This document shows, piece by piece, positions 9,228 through 56,635 of a DNA stretch of 64,000 nucleotides. Below the pieces are notes generated by a model, which worked only from the letters and a program-made list of their open reading frames with translations, had not been told where the DNA came from and did no database searches. Made by a program: the position numbers and the translations under genes. This DNA is from Arthrobacter citreus. GTDB taxonomy: Bacteria > Bacillota > Bacilli > Bacillales > Bacillaceae_G. The stretch spans positions 1,736,001 through 1,800,000 of the forward strand of contig CP053688.1 of NCBI GenBank assembly GCA_013200995.1, read 5' to 3'. Each line of letters begins with the position of its first letter. Position 1 is the stretch's first letter.

Positions 9228-9327
9228 TAAGATCGTTGGAAAACATAAAATAATGACAATACTTTAAATTAAGCTTTCTTTCAAAAAGGCACCTCCCTAT
9301 CTCTCGTAGGTCAAACAGCGTCGTTAG

Positions 9328-9446
9328 AATAGGCAGGTCTCCTGACTTTAGAATTTTCATCTATTACAGTGGCGGGACCGCGTTGGAATTTCACCAATCT
9401 TCCCTTTTAAGTAAATGAATTAATAAGAATTTCATTTACACCTATT
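9328..9446 (-). promoter_or_regulatory. Cobalamin riboswitch aptamer
   Basis: Minus strand shows the conserved core in order: GGTGAAATTCC, GGTCCCGCCACTGT and the B12 box AGTCAGGAGACCTGCC. A closing stem is formed by AATAGG (9446-9441) and CCTATT (9333-9328). The peripheral P6 region is short, so it is a compact variant. An L13-like hairpin and the SD-like GGGAGG at about 9297 follow. Members repress B12 transport or synthesis genes, or B12-independent isozymes, when cobalamin is bound. No such gene follows here. Confidence 0.9.
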
Positions 9447-9467
9447 CCCTACTATTTAGTTTTCATT

Positions 9468-31710: not shown

Positions 31711-32532
31711 TCATTTAATAGTTGAAGAATAAACCTCATATCCTCTTCCAATATCCTTTACACTATGAGAATCTGAACCATACATAAATTGGATATTTAA
31801 TGAATTTGCAATTTCAACTACGTGATTTGGTGGATAAGTTTCACCACAATATTCTTTAAATAGTCCCGCGGTATTATAGTCTAAAATATAATTTTTTTCT
31901 TTTACTAGCTTTAATACTTCAATTTGTTTATTTATTATTTTTTCGGTATCTTCACACTTTAAAAATTGCATAAACTTATTACATAAAGTCATATGTCCGA
32001 TTCGTGTTGGTTTAAGTGGACCTAGATCATCTAAAATCGATTGTTTCACATTATCGTAGTAAGCAAGTTGAAACGCTTCTACACTACCATAGTAATTTAC
32101 TAGGCCGCTCAGTGTATCTTCAGCTTTATAATCTATACATTGCCATCCATCTTTCCCTTCCAAATAATGAATAGATAATAGACCCGTATCACAATATTTA
32201 CCGTATTCTTTTAAAAATTGTTTAAACCATACCGATTCGCTAGGTAAATAATCGTATTCAAAGCCGATTTTGATTCGAATTCGATCTTTGTATTGATCTC
32301 TTACTTTAGTCATTTCTTTTATATAATCGTCTACATCATTTTCAGACATTGAAAGTGATGCAACTGCTTCATCTGGCTTTAAAACATTTTGAAATGATGA
32401 CGGTATTGGAGTATGCTCAGTGATATGGTATTCATCGAAACCAAGTTCAATAGCTTTCTCAATCATTAATTGTACATCGTCTCCACTTCCGTGTGGACAA
32501 TATTGTGTATGAGTGTGTCCATCAATCTTCAA
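31711..32532 (-). CDS. hisJ: Histidinol-phosphatase (PHP family)
   Basis: 273-residue PHP phosphoesterase: metal-binding [12 protein letters not shown] (6-17) at the N-terminus, [17 protein letters not shown], and MYGSDSH near the C-terminus. HisJ/HisK hydrolyses L-histidinol phosphate to L-histidinol, the penultimate but one step. TTG start at 32532 overlaps the hisI stop (TTGA); the SD AAAGGAG lies inside hisI. Last gene of the operon. Confidence 0.9.
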
Positions 32533-33170
32533 GATTTTACTTTCTCCTTTCTGTTGATTAAACTATTGTTTATTTCTTCAAGTTTTATTCCCTTTTCTAC
32601 CATTAAGACCATTGTGTGATAGACAAGATCACTAATTTCATAAATTAATTCCTCTGTTCCTTCATTTTTAGCTCCGATGATCACTTCACTTGTTTCTTCA
32701 CCTATTTTTTTCAATATCTTATCAATTCCTTGATTAAATAAATATGTAGTATAAGATCCTTCAATTGGATTCTTTTTTCGATCAAGAATTGTTTCATAAA
32801 GATTTGGTAAATAGGATGGAACTTCGTTTTGAGTATCATTTTCTTTATTTAACACTAATTTTTCTGAAAAACAACTATAGCTTCCTGTATGACATGCAAC
32901 ACCTACTTGCTCAACTTGCAGTAAAATTGAATCTTGGTCGCAGTCATACGATACTGATTTTACATATTGTAAATTCCCTGATGTTTCACCTTTTTTCCAT
33001 ATTTCTTGGCGACTCCTACTATAAAAGGTTGCAAATCCTGTTTCAATTGTGAGATTAATTGATTCATAATTCATATACGCTAGCATTAATACTTCATTTG
33101 TATCTACATCTTGAACGATTGCTGGTACTAAACCTTGTTCATTAAATCGAATCTTTTCTAAATCAAACAT
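32529..33170 (-). CDS. hisI: Bifunctional phosphoribosyl-AMP cyclohydrolase / phosphoribosyl-ATP pyrophosphatase
   Basis: 213-residue HisIE fusion. Residues 1-110 are the cyclohydrolase ([19 protein letters not shown], zinc ligands in [12 protein letters not shown] and [12 protein letters not shown]); residues 120-213 are the pyrophosphatase ([30 protein letters not shown]). It carries out the second and third steps of histidine synthesis. SD GGAGGAG before ATG 33170. Eleven bases separate it from hisF. Confidence 0.95.
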
Positions 33171-33181
33171 GTTTGCTCCTC

Positions 33182-33940
33182 CTATAGTCGAACTGGAATA
33201 TTTTTTTCATTTAAATAGTTTTTTAGGTCTTTAATCTCGATTTCGCCAAAATGGAATACTGAGGCAGCTAATACACCATCCACATTTGCGTATTCAATCG
33301 CGTCGTAAAAATGTTCTAATTTACCAGCTCCTCCAGATGCAATGACAGGAACATTCACTGCATTCGTAACTTTTTGGAGTAATCCAATATCAAATCCTCT
33401 TTTCATACCATCTTCGTTAATACTATTTAGAACAATTTCACCCGCTCCGAGTTCTACACCCGTCTTAGCCCATTCAATTGCGTCCCACTCTGTTTCTTTG
33501 CGCCCACCATTTATAAACACTTTATATTGACCATCACTATTTAACTTTGCATCAATTGAAAGGACAACACACTGTGATCCAAAGCGAGCAGATGCTTCAT
33601 TGATTAAATTCGGATTTAAGATTGCAGCAGAATTAACGGATACTTTATCTGCACCATTTCTTAAAAGTTTAGTAAAATCATCTATTGAGCGTACCCCCCC
33701 ACCAACGCTGAAAGGAATACGTAATTCTTTTGCTACCTCTGAAACAAATTGCAATGATATATCTCTTTCTTCATTTGAAGCTGTAATATCATAAAATACT
33801 AATTCATCAGCACCATTATCACTATAATATTTTCCAAGTTTAGTAGGTGAATCAACATCTTGAATGCTTGAAAATTGTTTTCCTTTTACGACACGTCCAT
33901 TTCGAACATCTAAGCACGGTATAATTCTTCTTGCAAGCAT
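33182..33940 (-). CDS. hisF: Imidazole glycerol phosphate synthase, cyclase subunit
   Basis: 252-residue TIM barrel; catalytic Asp in [13 protein letters not shown] (D11) and in SIDAKLN (about D130), phosphate sites GGVRS and SGGAG. With HisH it turns PRFAR and ammonia into IGP and AICAR. Start ATG 33940 lies 31 bases inside the end of hisA, with SD GAGGAGG in hisA. Confidence 0.97.
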
Positions 33941-34641
33941 TTAAGTGCCTCCTCTACAGTAAATTTTCCTTCATACAATGCTTTACCAGAGATCGCACCA
34001 TAAATATTTAATTGACTGAGTGTTTCAAGATCATTTAACGTACTTACTCCACCTGAAGCAATAATATTTAAATTCGTTTCTTCAGCTAATCTTTTATATG
34101 CTTCAATATTTGGTCCACTTAGCATGCCATCCTTTGATATATCAGTGTATACGACTGTTTTCACACCTAGTAGTTCTAACTGCTTACAAAATTCAAAGCT
34201 GTCTTGATTAGTTGACTCCTCCCAACCATTTATAGCAACATAACTGTTTTTTGCGTCTACGCCTACAATGATTCGATTTCCGTATGTAGAGATAGCTTGT
34301 TCTAATAGCTGTCTATCTTTAATCGCAGCTGTTCCTAAAATTACACGTTCAACTCCTAGTTCTAACCAGAACGAAATTGATTCAAGCGATCTGATTCCTC
34401 CACCAATCTGAATTTTCAACTTCGTATTTTGAACAATTCCTTTAATAATTGAAGCATTTTTTCGTTCACCAGTTCTTGCACCATCTAAATCAACTATATG
34501 TAATACTTTTGCGCCAGATTTATCAAAATCTAACGCAACCTCTAGTGGTGAATTTTGATAGATTACTTTCTTATTAAAATCTCCTTGCTCGAGGCGAACA
34601 CAATTACCATCCTTTAAATCAATTGCTGGATATAGAATCAT
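33910..34641 (-). CDS. hisA: ProFAR isomerase
   Basis: 243-residue TIM barrel; [16 protein letters not shown] with the catalytic D8, VGVDAKN-type sequence ([14 protein letters not shown]) with the second acid, phosphate sites GGGIRS and SGGVST. Catalyses the fourth step. It overlaps the end of hisH by 23 bases and the start of hisF by 31, so translation is coupled. SD AAGGAG in hisH. Confidence 0.97.
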
Positions 34642-35242
34642 ATAAACACAACTCCTTAAATGCTTTTAATAGATTAAGACCTGTTTCTGCGCTTTTTTCA
34701 GGATGAAATTGCATACCGTAAATATTACCGGATTTAATGACTGCTGGGATTTTGACCCCATATTCAGAGTAAGCTAGCAGTTCATTATTTGAAGAACTAA
34801 CATAAAATGAGTGTACAAAATAGACATACTCACCTTCATTTACATACTTAACTAATGATTCCTCTTTCGTAAAATTTAATTTATTCCATCCCATATGTGG
34901 AACTTTTACAATATCCGGTATCTGTTTGACCTGACCTTGAATTAAGCCAAGACCATTCGTTCCTAAGTTTTCTTCACTAAATTCATATAGTAATTGCATT
35001 CCTAAGCAAATCCCTAAAATCGGCGTGCCACTTTTTGCTTTAGACTTTATAATCTCTATTAGACTAAGACTTTCTAATTCATTCATCGCCGCTTCATATG
35101 CGCCAACGCCTGGTAGAATAATAGATGAAGCTTGCTTTATCACTTCAATTTCATTACTGATCAATACTGGAAAACCAATTTCTTCACACGCTCTTTTTAA
35201 AGAGTCCAAATTACCTACACCATAATCAATAATAATATTCAC
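34619..35242 (-). CDS. hisH: Imidazole glycerol phosphate synthase, glutaminase subunit
   Basis: 207-residue class I glutamine amidotransferase: nucleophile C79 in LGICLGMQLL, His180 and Glu182 in QFHPEKS. Supplies ammonia to HisF. Start is the GTG at 35242 directly after the hisB stop, with SD AAAGGAATG in hisB. Confidence 0.97.
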   Translation of the reverse strand: MNIIIDYGVGNLDSLKRACEEIGFPVLISNEIEVIKQASSIILPGVGAYEAAMNELESLSLIEIIKSKAKSGTPILGICLGMQLLYEFSEENLGTNGLGLIQGQVKQIPDIVKVPHMGWNKLNFTKEESLVKYVNEGEYVYFVHSFYVSSSNNELLAYSEYGVKIPAVIKSGNIYGMQFHPEKSAETGLNLLKAFKELCLYDSISSN

Positions 35243-35821
35243 TTATAACATTCCTTTCGTGGAAGGTAACTTAGACGAGGTCACTTCTACCGCTTGTTTA
35301 ACTGCTCTACCGAACGCTTTAAATAAAGCTTCAATTTTGTGATGATCATTTTCCCCGTATAAAACTTCCATATGGCAATTCATTTTAGCTTCAGAGCTAA
35401 GTGCCTTAAAAAATTCTTTGAAGTTTTGTGTATCAATCATTCCAATTCGCTCTCTTACTGTTCGATCATTATAAACAAGATATGGTCTATTACTAAAATC
35501 AACTACTACTCTTGCTAATGTCTCATCCATTGGAATATAGCAAGAGCCGTAACGATTAATGCCAATTTTTTCTCCTAATGCATCTACCAATGCTTTACCT
35601 AATGCAATTCCAACATCTTCTGTCGTGTGATGGTCATCAACTTCCAGATCACCTTCACAAAATACTTCTAAATCGATCCCACTATGGAATGAAAATAAAG
35701 TTAACATATGGTCTAAAAATCCAATTCCAGTCTGAATATTACTTTCCCCATCACCATCTAAATTTAATGATAAACTAATTTTTGTTTCTTTTGTTTGTCT
35801 TGAAATTACTGCAGTTCTCAC
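35243..35821 (-). CDS. hisB: Imidazoleglycerol-phosphate dehydratase
   Basis: 192 residues; both IGPD metal motifs are present, DHHTTEDVGIALG and the related C-terminal NDHHKIEALFKAFG, plus the GFLDHMLTLFSFHSG block. Monofunctional, as in Bacillus (the phosphatase is HisJ). GTG start overlaps the hisD stop (GTGA), SD GAGGAGG. Confidence 0.97.
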   Translation of the reverse strand: MRTAVISRQTKETKISLSLNLDGDGESNIQTGIGFLDHMLTLFSFHSGIDLEVFCEGDLEVDDHHTTEDVGIALGKALVDALGEKIGINRYGSCYIPMDETLARVVVDFSNRPYLVYNDRTVRERIGMIDTQNFKEFFKALSSEAKMNCHMEVLYGENDHHKIEALFKAFGRAVKQAVEVTSSKLPSTKGML

Positions 35822-37107
35822 TCTGAATCCTCCTCAAATCGAATACTTATTGCTTTTCCATGTCCAAATAGTCCTTCTTCTTCTGCAATAACTTCAATGT
35901 GCTTTCTTGCTTCCTTTAAAGCTTTCTTATTGTAATAAACAACCGACGTTTTCTTTTGAAAATCATTCACATTTAAAGGTGATGTAAATCTTGCAGTTCC
36001 ACTTGTTGGTAAAGTATGATTCGTACCAGCAAAATAATCGCCAACTGGCTCAGGCGTGTAGTCACCTAAAAAAATAGCACCAGCGTTTTTAATTTGATGA
36101 ACGATTGATTCCGGGTTTTTGATCATGATTTCAAGATGTTCAGGCGCTAGCTTATTAACCAGCTCAATTCCTTCTTCAATTGTTTTAACAACTAGTATTG
36201 CTCCATACTGTTCGAATGAACTTTTAATAATTTCTTTTCTTGGTTGTTCTTCTAATAAATTTGGTATTTGTTGCTGAATTTTTAGAGCAAACTCTTCTGA
36301 ATTTGTAATAACAATACTAGATGCCATTTCATCATGCTCTGCTTGCGCCATTAAATCGGCAGCAATAAATCTTGGATTAGCTGTTTCATCTGCTAATATA
36401 ACAACTTCTGTTGGACCTGCAACCATATCAATTCCAACTATTCCTGAAACACTTTTCTTAGCAAGTGCAACATAAAGATTTCCTGGACCAACTATTTTGT
36501 CTACCTTTTCAATTGTTTCCGTTCCATATGCTAGTGCACCAATTGCTTGTGCTCCACCAACTTTATAGACTTTTGAAACGCCAGCTAATTTCGCAGCTAC
36601 TAGAATTGAGGGCTTGATTTTCCCTTCTTTATTCGGAGGTGTTACAATGACAATCTCTTTTACCCCTGCTATTTTTGCGGGAATTACATTCATTAAAACA
36701 GTAGATGGATATGCCGCTTTACCTGCTGGTATATACACACCAACTCTTTCAATTGGATGAATTAATTGTTGTACATAAGAATTTTTATCGTTTATTTTAT
36801 AGCCATCTTGAAGTTGTTTTTCATGGTATCTTTCTATGTTCTTCTTAGCTTCAGCTAATGCAGTAACTAGTTTTTCATCAGTTTGTTCTAACGCTTCATT
36901 AAATTCTACTTCACTTACTTCAAAGTCTTTTAGTTTGACTTCGTCGTAAATTAAAGAATATTGACGTACAGCTTCATCACCATTTTCTTTCACATTTAAT
37001 AAAATTTTTTCTACGCTTTTTGTGATCTCAACAGTAGGTAAATTAGTTCGGTTTATAATACTTTCAAGTTTATCGCTTTTTTGATTAATCGATAATATTT
37101 CCAGCAT
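35818..37107 (-). CDS. hisD: Histidinol dehydrogenase
   Basis: 429 residues; typical HisD blocks: GVYIPAGKAAYPSTVLM, GGAQAIGALAYGTETI, VDKIVGPGNLYVALAK, DMVAGPTEVVI and MAQAEHDEMASSI (zinc/catalytic residues), GDYFAGTNHTLPTSG. Catalyses the last two oxidations to histidine with two NAD. A TTG at 37113 is in frame, but ATG 37107, at better distance from AAGGGA, is preferred. It overlaps hisG by 23 bases. Confidence 0.97.
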   Translation of the reverse strand: MLEILSINQKSDKLESIINRTNLPTVEITKSVEKILLNVKENGDEAVRQYSLIYDEVKLKDFEVSEVEFNEALEQTDEKLVTALAEAKKNIERYHEKQLQDGYKINDKNSYVQQLIHPIERVGVYIPAGKAAYPSTVLMNVIPAKIAGVKEIVIVTPPNKEGKIKPSILVAAKLAGVSKVYKVGGAQAIGALAYGTETIEKVDKIVGPGNLYVALAKKSVSGIVGIDMVAGPTEVVILADETANPRFIAADLMAQAEHDEMASSIVITNSEEFALKIQQQIPNLLEEQPRKEIIKSSFEQYGAILVVKTIEEGIELVNKLAPEHLEIMIKNPESIVHQIKNAGAIFLGDYTPEPVGDYFAGTNHTLPTSGTARFTSPLNVNDFQKKTSVVYYNKKALKEARKHIEVIAEEEGLFGHGKAISIRFEEDSE

Positions 37108-37732
37108 ATACAATCTTTCCCTTCTTAATTTTTTCGAGAAACTCGGTAATTCGTAAGTGGTTAAATCTGTAACTTACACGATTTGAAATGACTCTAGCAC
37201 TAATCGGAATCATTTCTTCTAAGATCACTAATCCATTCGCTTTTAAAGTACTCCCTGTTTCAACTAAATCAACTATGATATCTGACATTCCTACAATGGG
37301 TGCTAATTCAACTGACCCATTTAAGTAAATTAATTCTATATTTTGCCTCAACTGAAAATATTTTGAAGTAATATTTGGATACTTTGTTGCGATCCTTAAA
37401 GTTTCTTCACCTCGATCGAGTAGTGTTCCTGGAAAACCAGCTGCTGCAAAGACGCATTTTCCAAGTTCTAAATCCATTAGTTCATATACATCCTTCTCTT
37501 GTTCTAGCAAAATATCCTTTCCAACAAAACCAAGATCACAAACTCCTCGTTCAACATAAGTAGCAACATCTACTGGTTTAACTACCAAATATTTAATTTT
37601 ATGTAATTCGTCTACAAATATTAGCTTTCTAGTTTTAGAATCAATTACTTTTTGAAACCCTGCTTGATTTAATATATTAATAACCTCATCTTCAAGTCTT
37701 CCTTTTGCAACTGCAACAGTTAGCCAACTCAT
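37085..37732 (-). CDS. hisG: ATP phosphoribosyltransferase, short form
   Basis: 215-residue short HisG without the C-terminal regulatory domain: VAVAKGRLEDEV near the start, DLGFVGKDILLEQ, PRPP loop VDLVETGSTLKANGL. The short form needs HisZ for activity and feedback, and hisZ precedes it, overlapping at ATGA. First step of histidine synthesis. Confidence 0.97.
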   Translation of the reverse strand: MSWLTVAVAKGRLEDEVINILNQAGFQKVIDSKTRKLIFVDELHKIKYLVVKPVDVATYVERGVCDLGFVGKDILLEQEKDVYELMDLELGKCVFAAAGFPGTLLDRGEETLRIATKYPNITSKYFQLRQNIELIYLNGSVELAPIVGMSDIIVDLVETGSTLKANGLVILEEMIPISARVISNRVSYRFNHLRITEFLEKIKKGKIVYAGNIID

Positions 37733-38646
37733 TGTTCATCCCTCATTTGACATGTTATCCAAGCATTTGTATCAATCGAAAAGCCGATTGCATCAATATT
37801 GTTTTCCGAATCTTCAGACACCAGAAGATAGCGCCCACCACTTAAAACCTCTTTATTTAACTGATCATAATAACCTTTAAAGACGATGCCGTCATAATAA
37901 TCAAATTCATTTACGATTGATAAATCAATCAGTATATTTGGGCTAATTTCTTGAAACTTGATTAACTTTTCAACAGCAATTTCCATTTCTTCGTTTAAGA
38001 TTAAGCTTCTCAGTACTGAATGAAGTTTTTCTCCCTTACCTTGCAAACTAAATAATTGTTTAAAAACATTTCTAGCTTGAGGAGGAAGATGGATTGACTG
38101 AATAAATCGTTCTAACTCATCTATGTTTTTTAAATAAATTAGCTTTTTCAATTTTGTTTTTTGAGATTTTGTAAAGTTACATTCTTTAAATAATCCTTCT
38201 ATAAAACCTGTATGGCCAATTTCTAAAATAAATGGAACATTACTTAGTAAATCAATTGCCATAATAACTACTTCAATTTCTGACGCTTCTGTAATTTGAC
38301 CTAAATTTTCAATACCGAACTGCTTAATTTCATCAATTTCTACACCATTATTTCGATAAATTGTTGATTGATAAAATACTTTGCACTTCTCATCTTTTTG
38401 TGCAATCGGATAAATTTCTTTCATCAATGTACTTGTTATATCAGGCCTTAACAATAAAATTTGTTGCAGGCGTGTTAAAACGACGACTAAGTCTTCTTTT
38501 GCTAATCTTGGGTTTCGACTAGAAAATGAATCATACTCTTCAAATAGCTGTGGATGAAACGGGATATATCCCCGCTCTAGTGCATAATCTTCCATTTTTC
38601 TTTTATATCGATAATTAATTAAGGACTGCTTTAATTTCTGATCCAA
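37729..38646 (-). CDS. hisZ: ATP phosphoribosyltransferase regulatory subunit, compact form
   Basis: 305 residues of HisRS-like fold: LLLRPDITSTLMKEI (motif 2-like), the strand-rich FYQSTIYRNNG, and C-terminal LSGGRYLLVS. Usual Bacillus HisZ is about 390 residues; this one lacks about 80, chiefly the N-terminal motif-1 region. It still shows an intact frame and correct position in the operon, so it is probably functional. TTG start 38646 after AAGGGAG. Confidence 0.88.
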   Translation of the reverse strand: MDQKLKQSLINYRYKRKMEDYALERGYIPFHPQLFEEYDSFSSRNPRLAKEDLVVVLTRLQQILLLRPDITSTLMKEIYPIAQKDEKCKVFYQSTIYRNNGVEIDEIKQFGIENLGQITEASEIEVVIMAIDLLSNVPFILEIGHTGFIEGLFKECNFTKSQKTKLKKLIYLKNIDELERFIQSIHLPPQARNVFKQLFSLQGKGEKLHSVLRSLILNEEMEIAVEKLIKFQEISPNILIDLSIVNEFDYYDGIVFKGYYDQLNKEVLSGGRYLLVSEDSENNIDAIGFSIDTNAWITCQMRDEQ

Positions 38647-38663: not shown

Positions 38664-38710
38664 TAGAAAAATAAAAAGGCCATACAGGTTAATGCCTGTA
38701 TGGCCTTCTG
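38664..38710 (-). terminator. his operon attenuator
   Basis: Minus strand AAGGCCATACAGG pairs perfectly (13 bp) with CCTGTATGGCCTT over CATTAA, then TTTTTATTTTT. It lies between the leader peptide and hisZ, 18 bases before the hisZ start. Confidence 0.9.
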
Positions 38711-38779
38711 GCACGACACAAGCACCTTCTTCGATACACGAATAGGGCTTGCATCTATGGTCAATTTTTGTCCATAGAT

Positions 38780-38836
38780 TCAAACCCTGGGTGGATGATG
38801 ATGTTGTAGCCCATTATTCGTGCGTGCAAAAAACAT
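38780..38836 (-). CDS. hisL: his operon leader peptide with three consecutive His codons
   Basis: MFFARTNNGLQHHHPPRV, 18 residues; ATG 38836 is eight bases after AAGGAG (an in-frame ATG at 38842 is too close). His codons are CAT-CAT-CAT at 38803-38795. Its 5' part (38822-38808) can pair with 38749-38737 just before the attenuator, and AUCUAUGG/CCAUAGAU forms an inner hairpin. This is the layout of translation-attenuation leaders of enterobacterial his operons. No T-box sequence was found. Confidence 0.85.
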   Translation of the reverse strand: MFFARTNNGLQHHHPPRV

Positions 38837-38870
38837 GTTCATGTCTCCTTTTTAAGTTTTATTTTTATTC

Positions 38871-38899
38871 ATCTTAATGAATTTGGTATAAGTTGTCAA
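38871..38899 (-). promoter_or_regulatory. his operon promoter
   Basis: Minus strand TTGACA (38899-38894), 17-base spacer, TAAGAT (38876-38871): an almost consensus sigma-A promoter, about 35 bases before the leader peptide. Confidence 0.85.
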
Positions 38900-39025
38900 T
38901 CCCTTTTGAATAATAAAAATTTTGGAAGGGTTTACATTACGAAATTTTAATTTTTAAATCTATTATACTAAAATGTATTTTCCCATACATTTTTCCTTAT
39001 AATGAATGATCTTTTGATTATATCA

Positions 39026-56417: not shown

Positions 56418-56590
56418 GATGTCAGTCCTTTTCAGTTAAAGTTGAATTAAATAATTATACTCATTCCTAATTATATCAGTATAATAAATTTTATAAAGTA
56501 TTTTTTTGAACTTCTTTCACAATTACTTTTTATCTTATTATTGACTAAAAATCATTTTCGGTTTAATATTTATTCTTACGTGTAAATTTA

Positions 56591-56626
56591 CGTGGTTCGA
56601 AAACCTCCCACGGAAAAAAACTAAGG
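56591..56626 (+). promoter_or_regulatory. preQ1-I riboswitch
   Basis: P1 stem GTGG/CCAC around TTCG-type loop and the AAAACCTC stretch, then A-rich tail ending AAAAAACTAAGGAG. The tail contains the SD AAGGAG of queT, so preQ1 binding would hide the SD: translational control. Core elements match the preQ1-I consensus. Confidence 0.85.
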
Positions 56627-56635
56627 AGAAACAAA

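Follow-up and report, generated by a model that had tools for sequence, protein, structure and literature searches.

A probable histidine leader-peptide attenuator upstream of hisZ in a Gottfriedia-like genome, and similar leaders in other Bacilli

The his operon of the Bacillaceae_G genome deposited as Arthrobacter citreus (contig CP053688.1) raises the question of how its transcription is controlled ahead of hisZ, its first gene. In the window, that is, the whole 64,000-nucleotide stretch that was analysed, the minus strand at 38899–38673 displays a promoter, a Shine-Dalgarno (SD) sequence, an 18-codon ORF (MFFARTNNGLQHHHPPRV) and a strong terminator, with hisZ of the his operon next (Table 1). 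The near-consensus promoter, the SD, the ORF and its three CAT codons had been described in an earlier sequence-only reading of this DNA and are present on the minus strand as described. The strong terminator with its U-run right before hisZ was likewise confirmed. An alternative in-frame ATG at 38842 adds two codons to the ORF, yet it is positioned just 2 nt from the SD. Taken by itself, the promoter scan is at chance level (5 in the region on both strands vs 4.1 in shuffles), while the terminator scan returned 1 vs 0.3 in shuffles. The 206-nt leader folds at −76.6 kcal/mol vs −41.9 kcal/mol (sd 4.0) for its shuffles, giving a z of −8.6, and 0/200 shuffles were as low. The names hisG to hisIE given to the downstream genes, and that of the PHP-type ORF, presumably a histidinol phosphatase, are assumed from family resemblance.

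Table 1. Features of the his leader and operon in the window
Feature	Position	Strand	Remarks
Sigma-A type promoter TTGACA-17-TAAGAT	38871..38899	-	10/12 consensus bases
Shine-Dalgarno AAGGAG of leader ORF	38845..38850	-	read from sequence
Leader peptide ORF MFFARTNNGLQHHHPPRV, 18 codons	38780..38836	-	codons 38836-38783, stop TGA 38782-38780
Tandem CAT CAT CAT (His), proposed sensor	38795..38803	-	codons 12-14 of leader ORF
Segment B, GGGTTTGAATCTATGG	38772..38787	-	partner C; helix BC 98.3% of cells paired in A1
Segment C, CCATAGATGCAAGCCC	38745..38760	-	partner B on stalling; partner D, through 38755-38739, with the ribosome at stop
Segment D	38715..38733	-	predicted to pair with C 38755-38739 once the peptide is finished; helix CD 98.9% of cells paired
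Antiterminator 5' arm GTGCTTGTGT	38716..38725	-	extra pairing GCC 38712-38710 / GGC 38705-38703
Antiterminator 3' arm ATACAGGCAT	38692..38701	-	overlaps terminator 5' arm; helix DE 100% of cells paired, 12 distinct rows
Intrinsic terminator and T-run	38673..38709	-	11-bp core 38705-38695 / 38688-38678; 15 pairs in all, flanking A-U included; loop 6
hisZ (TTG start at 38646), first operon gene	37729..38646	-	TIGR00443 best NCBIfam match, below curated cut-off; PF13393 above gathering score
Remaining operon: hisG, hisD, hisB, hisH, hisA, hisF, hisIE, PHP-type ORF	31711..37732	-	listed ORFs

Very probably the leader attenuates transcription specifically in response to histidine by means of its leader peptide, in the classical manner of the E. 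coli his operon. This proposal is built on the promoter and SD, on a short ORF containing a run of His codons, on four conserved complementarities (B:C, C:D, D:E and E:F) and on a modelled switch. Segment C extends over 38760–38739 when its D-pairing part is included, segment E over 38705–38692, and segment F is the terminator 3' arm. When B:C is formed, D is free for E; when C:D is formed, E is free for F. At scarce charged tRNA-His a ribosome would stall at 38803–38795, B:C would pair and D would be left to pair with E, and the D:E helix would keep the terminator from forming and allow transcription of the his operon. At ample histidine the ribosome would reach the stop codon and cover B, leading to C:D pairing, formation of the E:F terminator and the end of transcription before hisZ. 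The weakest step concerns transcripts that are not translated; here the SD and the start of the ORF may pair with D in a long hairpin, and the terminator may form in this state too. The his attenuator of E. coli and Salmonella works alike, with B:C and D:E set against C:D and E:F, although its His run is longer than that of the window leader.

The alternative pairings put forward by the sequence-only reading stood in part. The pairing of 38822–38808 with 38749–38737 exists as written, but of the cells in the long-range helix that contains it just 89% are paired across 12 distinct leaders, and many of its pairs include unpaired cells. This helix might account for the state without translation. 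Similarly, AUCUAUGG/CCAUAGAU occurs as written, but the AUCUAUGG hairpin does not itself compete with the terminator. The helix that does had been missed and was identified as 38725–38716 pairing with 38701–38692, the latter located within the terminator. The D:E antiterminator thus defined joins GUGCUUGUGU with AUACAGGCAU, plus the GCC/GGC pairing.

The switch was modelled by masked folding, in which bases were blocked to 12 nt beyond the A-site codon and the transcript was folded up to the F arm. In the window the probability of the antiterminator, P(D:E), is 0.99 for a ribosome whose A site holds the first His codon and 0.01 for one at the stop codon, which lends in silico support to the earlier proposal that stalling at the His codons prevents the terminator. 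For footprints of 9–15 nt the drop in P(D:E) occurs somewhere from codon 13 to codon 17, which places it at the His codons (12–14) or just past them. Across the 14 leaders of the genus, P(D:E) at the first His codon is 0.90–1.00 in 14/14, and at the stop codon it is 0.00–0.06 in 12/14. In equilibrium folding L086 switches partly (0.34–0.47 at stop) and L013 fails to switch (0.98 at stop), contrary to the model; in both leaders C:D forms (0.85) prior to the transcription of E, and a kinetic route is therefore possible as a prediction. When the stretch from stop codon to terminator was shuffled, 1/100 shuffles switched as well as the window. In a cruder switch test of 30 leaders, seven of them from the genus, ≤5/100 shuffles equalled the leader in 16/30. 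Little or no equilibrium switch (difference <0.24) is seen in 11/30 leaders of this wider set, namely L102, L115, L117, L118, L119, L121, L128, L149, L155, L159 and L160.

Stalls earlier than codon 13 likewise give D:E in the window model (0.99), and D:E also forms (0.81) in the unterminated transcript without a ribosome. Since any stall before codon 13, or no ribosome, gives D:E, His specificity depends on where the His codons are placed. An ORF that encodes an arrest peptide or senses translation rate in general, resembling the ermC type and not specific for His, would fit a modelled switch that requires merely a stall before about codon 15, and would also fit the Pro-Pro that follows the His run in 12/14 leaders. 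The conserved part is nevertheless the His codons: Pro-Pro is missing in L013 (RKR) and L086 (PLR) and is also lost in leaders of other families (QLHHHT, QQHHHG), and the downstream genes that can be named are mostly histidine genes. Such an arrest or rate-sensing role is very unlikely, and the histidine-specific attenuator is retained as the preferred reading.

Conservation of the peptide and pairings in relatives, as the sequence-only reading required, was found in the genus. hisZ homologs are present in 59/60 genomes searched, the own genome included, and the leader precedes hisZ in 13/13 same-genus (Gottfriedia-like) genomes, again including the own; there are 14 copies in total, genome G002 having a second his operon with its own leader copy. 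Two leaders, that of G003 and the second copy in G002, sit between hisC, as we take this gene to be, and hisZ. The second his operon of G002 (L086, 7075–8187, minus strand) carries an HDHH leader after hisC, and its HisZ is nearest to the G003 type in the tree. The ORF has 18 codons in 14/14 leaders, with CAT CAT CAT in 13/14 and CAT GAT CAT CAT in L086, while the non-His residues vary. Relative to the window, 22/28 distinct codon changes are non-synonymous and 6 are synonymous, the His codons being retained. The SD region reads GGAGACAT in 13/14 leaders and GGGGACAT in L013. A promoter matching 10/12 consensus bases with a spacer of 17 is located at the same place in 12/13 main copies of the genus and precedes 12/14 copies overall, the promoters of L013 (8/12) and L086 (9/12) being weaker; in two genus members the −10 box is TAATAT.

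The pairings were assessed on A1, an alignment not fitted to a model and comprising 12 distinct rows, in which the paired cells amount to 98.3% for B:C, 100% for D:E, 98.9% for C:D and 100% for E:F, vs 33.6–54.8% in slid controls. Column 155 (38705) is G in 10 rows and A in two, L013 and L086, and these two leaders carry a C to U change in both partners of that column, antiterminator column 150 and terminator column 183. Read from the alignment, this doubly matched change is to be expected if one arm has two alternative partners, and it is probably a single evolutionary event. Few pairs vary because the genus sequences are close, with a mean column identity of 92%, and most of the support found within the genus is drawn from sequences that are nearly identical. 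For C:D/E:F on A1, 175/500 shuffles had as many pairs changed on both sides, and several shuffle measures are unremarkable.

Like a leader peptide, a T-box riboswitch (RF00230) couples transcription attenuation to tRNA charging, and the operon might be imagined to sense uncharged tRNA-His directly through a T-box, the small ORF being incidental. T-boxes are at hand in the own genome, which contains 31 T-box matches, 29 of them above cut-off and one located 82 bases before the hisS match, and Lactobacillales his operons are under T-box control (PMC9413887). Nonetheless, neither the T-box (RF00230) nor the His_leader (RF00514) covariance model of Rfam matched the leader at E≤10. The earlier observation that a T-box core is absent is thereby upheld, and the lack of an RF00514 match distinguishes the window leader from that of E. 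coli and Salmonella. None of the 31 genomic T-box matches falls in the leader, the distance from the −10 box to the terminator end is only ~200 bases vs the 219 positions of the T-box model, and the His codons are conserved within an ORF. The T-box reading is refuted at the level of known T-box models and retains next to no probability. With 31 T-box matches and the his leader in the same genome, T-box and leader-peptide control therefore appear to coexist there. At E≤10 the leader gave 13 weak Rfam matches, none near its cut-off; the best, trpB RF04312 (31.8 bits vs a cut-off of 59), aligns mainly with the terminator and a hairpin and was rejected. At Rfam cut-offs the whole window contains only a cobalamin riboswitch (9315–9460, minus strand, 78.7 bits) and a preQ1 riboswitch (56586–56630, plus strand, 52.2 bits).

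The usual his regulator of Bacillales is not the T-box, as the sequence-only reading had supposed, but the HisR (YerC) repressor, which is listed for most members of the order (PMC9413887). HisR might thus be thought to control the window operon as well, the terminator merely lowering basal transcription, and in G003 leader and hisR are both present. hisR (TIGR02531) was, however, not found in 12/13 genus members, the own genome among them. No CTTTA-N6-TAAAG site with 0–1 mismatch occurs near the promoter, the only site being one with 2 mismatches at 38903–38918, and operator-like sites in the window are at chance level (85 vs 98.8 expected). Control by HisR would, moreover, leave the alternative pairings unexplained, and it is extremely unlikely here. 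TIGR02531 is present in 42/60 genomes searched, comprising G003 and 41/41 same-order genomes, and was not found in 6/6 other same-family genomes. Outside the genus, inspection by eye revealed no such leader at 17 hisZ loci (L014–L030), many of which carry, also by eye, a sequence resembling the HisR consensus of PMC9413887. Two of these loci, L025 and L027, belong to same-family genomes without a hisR match; at their hisZ promoters the sequence CTTGTAA...TTACAAG, seen by eye, is an inverted repeat free of mismatches, which may be the operator of another regulator.

Similar leaders were sought with the covariance model R1, built from the 14 genus leaders. On 19 family genomes R1 recovered the 14 known copies and matched 4/6 genomes of other genera, with E≤2.6e-11, and on 398 class genomes it gave 14 non-own matches, with E≤1.5e-8 and a His-codon run in 14/14. 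One of these, in G067 (E 1e-21), lies upstream of hisZ followed by a HisG-like ORF. The other 13 belong to one genus (g78; genomes of 4.4–6.7 Mb) and precede a gene whose start is HisS-like; the two downstream genes that were scanned, those of L119 and L128, scored as histidine--tRNA ligase (NF009085). The g78 genomes are presumably Brevibacillus. A weaker match, L129 in G090 (E 1.3e-5), contains four His codons and is accompanied by a his operon. A second model, R2, was built from 20 leaders and, on 397 order genomes at E≤1e-9, matched 18 genomes, 12 of the own genus and 6 others. Its weaker places were taken from 70 rows with E from 4e-6 to 0.01, reduced to 52 by removal of 18 opposite-strand or overlapping echoes; a His ORF before a HisS-like start is found at 15/52, a count that leaves out four chance ORFs (L131, L136, L202, L214), and 37/52 are without one. 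Beyond an E of about 1e-5 the matches are mixed. On 398 phylum genomes R2 matched 12 non-own genomes, with a His ORF by pattern at 1/12 loci (L137), whose downstream gene has NF009085 as best match, below its cut-off. No leader was seen at L107, L108 and L130–L133, which were dropped.

The genes behind these leaders are varied. The family scan placed hisS downstream of L163, L165, L155 and L160. hisS paralogs lie behind the leader peptides of L116–L128, of L154, L155, L159 and L160, and of 11 of L177–L207; these peptides mostly end in QLHHH or QQHHH plus one or two residues. A two-His leader (YNHHNR) stands before hisD in L149/L164, hisD having been scanned in L164. In L161 and L162, which represent two genomes without a hisR match, the leader MTQQLNVCMTIKHHHL precedes a Na+/H+ antiporter-family gene (PF03553 + PF13726) that we take to be YuiF-like. 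An APC antiporter is found downstream of L103 and L104 (= L168), with TIGR00905 as best match, below cut-off. L105 and L106 display a good His leader (QLHHHT) before an ORF of 151–163 aa, which in L106 (= L167) has no Pfam or NCBIfam match and is possibly a decayed gene. No Rfam family reached its cut-off in 14 of the wider-family loci.

On the model-fitted alignment A4, 14/26 B:C and E:F pairs change on both sides vs 7.4 in shuffles, and on A5 the figure is 23/26 vs 11.0, including 13/15 pairs of helix BC; the fitting of both alignments relied on the B:C and E:F helices, towards which they are biased, and A5 includes one spurious reverse-strand L115 row. Arm B is shifted by one base in L103–L106 of the MAFFT alignment A3, and for this reason no pairs were counted on it. 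The D:E helix, which is in no model, forms a duplex of ≤−12 kcal/mol in 27/30 leaders, and in 17/30 of them ≤10/200 base shuffles are as stable. In several leaders D:E is not unusual against shuffles (L090 47/200, L099 44/200, L116 74/200), and L155, L159 and L160 have weak D:E duplexes only, their terminator seemingly being placed elsewhere. Much of the model score comes from the CAT run and terminator, common to any His attenuator, and common descent of the wider-family leaders, as judged from sequence, is therefore likely but not proven.

In the HisZ tree the short HisZ of the genus groups with those of G067, G090 and G051, far from the HisZ of its own family. G067 and G090 bear leaders and belong to other families than the genus; in G051 no leader was seen. 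The tree is rough: columns filled in <30% of rows were trimmed, its branches are long, a warning of long-branch joining was raised, and some ORF starts lie too far upstream (345 aa in L003 and L005–L008, 377 in L012, and also in L023 and L030). For these reasons, joint acquisition of the his operon and its leader by transfer in the genus is a suggestion only. The balance tips slightly towards a single homologous His-attenuator family, which shares the B:C, C:D, D:E, E:F plan and in which a core of the type UUG-AUCU...AGAU-CAAG recurs, carried across Bacilli between genes that are not related, namely the his operon, a hisS paralog, hisD, a YuiF-like antiporter and an APC antiporter. Such a family would amount to a mobile regulon for histidine, taking the place of HisR in some lineages and existing alongside T-boxes; the Gottfriedia-like genus may have received it together with a foreign his operon of the short-HisZ type.

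The window leader, which the earlier reading presented as a Firmicute version of his attenuation, is not the first of its kind, bacilli His leaders having been in print since 2010 (PMC2965389, PMC9413887, PMC4833913). It is of the same kind as these and not new in kind. Naville and Gautheret (2010) described a His leader peptide upstream of hisZ and hisS* in bacilli (PMC2965389), which resembles the present leaders in its His-codon ORF and terminator before hisZ and a hisS paralog, with similar sequences at both. As far as consulted, that account leaves the anatomy of an antiterminator undescribed and is silent on this genus, on hisD and on transporter genes. For C. difficile and B. cereus group species, structures lying ahead of hisZ were cited in 2016 (PMC4833913). 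Candidate his-operon attenuators were reported by Ashniev et al. (2022) in the B. cereus group, Peptostreptococcaceae/Lutispora and Erysipelotrichales (6, 5 and 6 species; PMC9413887), where the B. cereus group element is treated as independently acquired. Compared by description, those attenuators are like the window leader, with 3–5 His codons, a terminator, an antiterminator and genomes without HisR; the main text of that paper never mentions Gottfriedia. Similar leaders before hisD and two kinds of transporter gene are unmentioned in the published accounts consulted. In searches that covered subscription journals thinly, nothing was found on Gottfriedia with histidine or an attenuator, nor on histidyl-tRNA synthetase, a leader peptide and Brevibacillus together, and on yuiF with attenuation only PMC9413887 appears relevant. 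The leucine-rich attenuator peptide of the S. aureus ilv-leu operon is also a Firmicute case of leader-peptide attenuation, with genetic support, and differs from the window leader in amino acid and operon (PMC5794164).

The element is real, well conserved and was interpreted correctly in outline by the sequence-only reading, and its wider family is probable. It provides a clean instance of enteric-style his attenuation from a Firmicute, with the antiterminator worked out; its genus mostly lacks HisR, and its genome continues to use T-boxes, including one ahead of hisS. Since similar RNA precedes several histidine genes elsewhere, the alignments and models are on offer for a curated RNA family. 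The system thus represents a tractable case for how one regulatory system replaces another.
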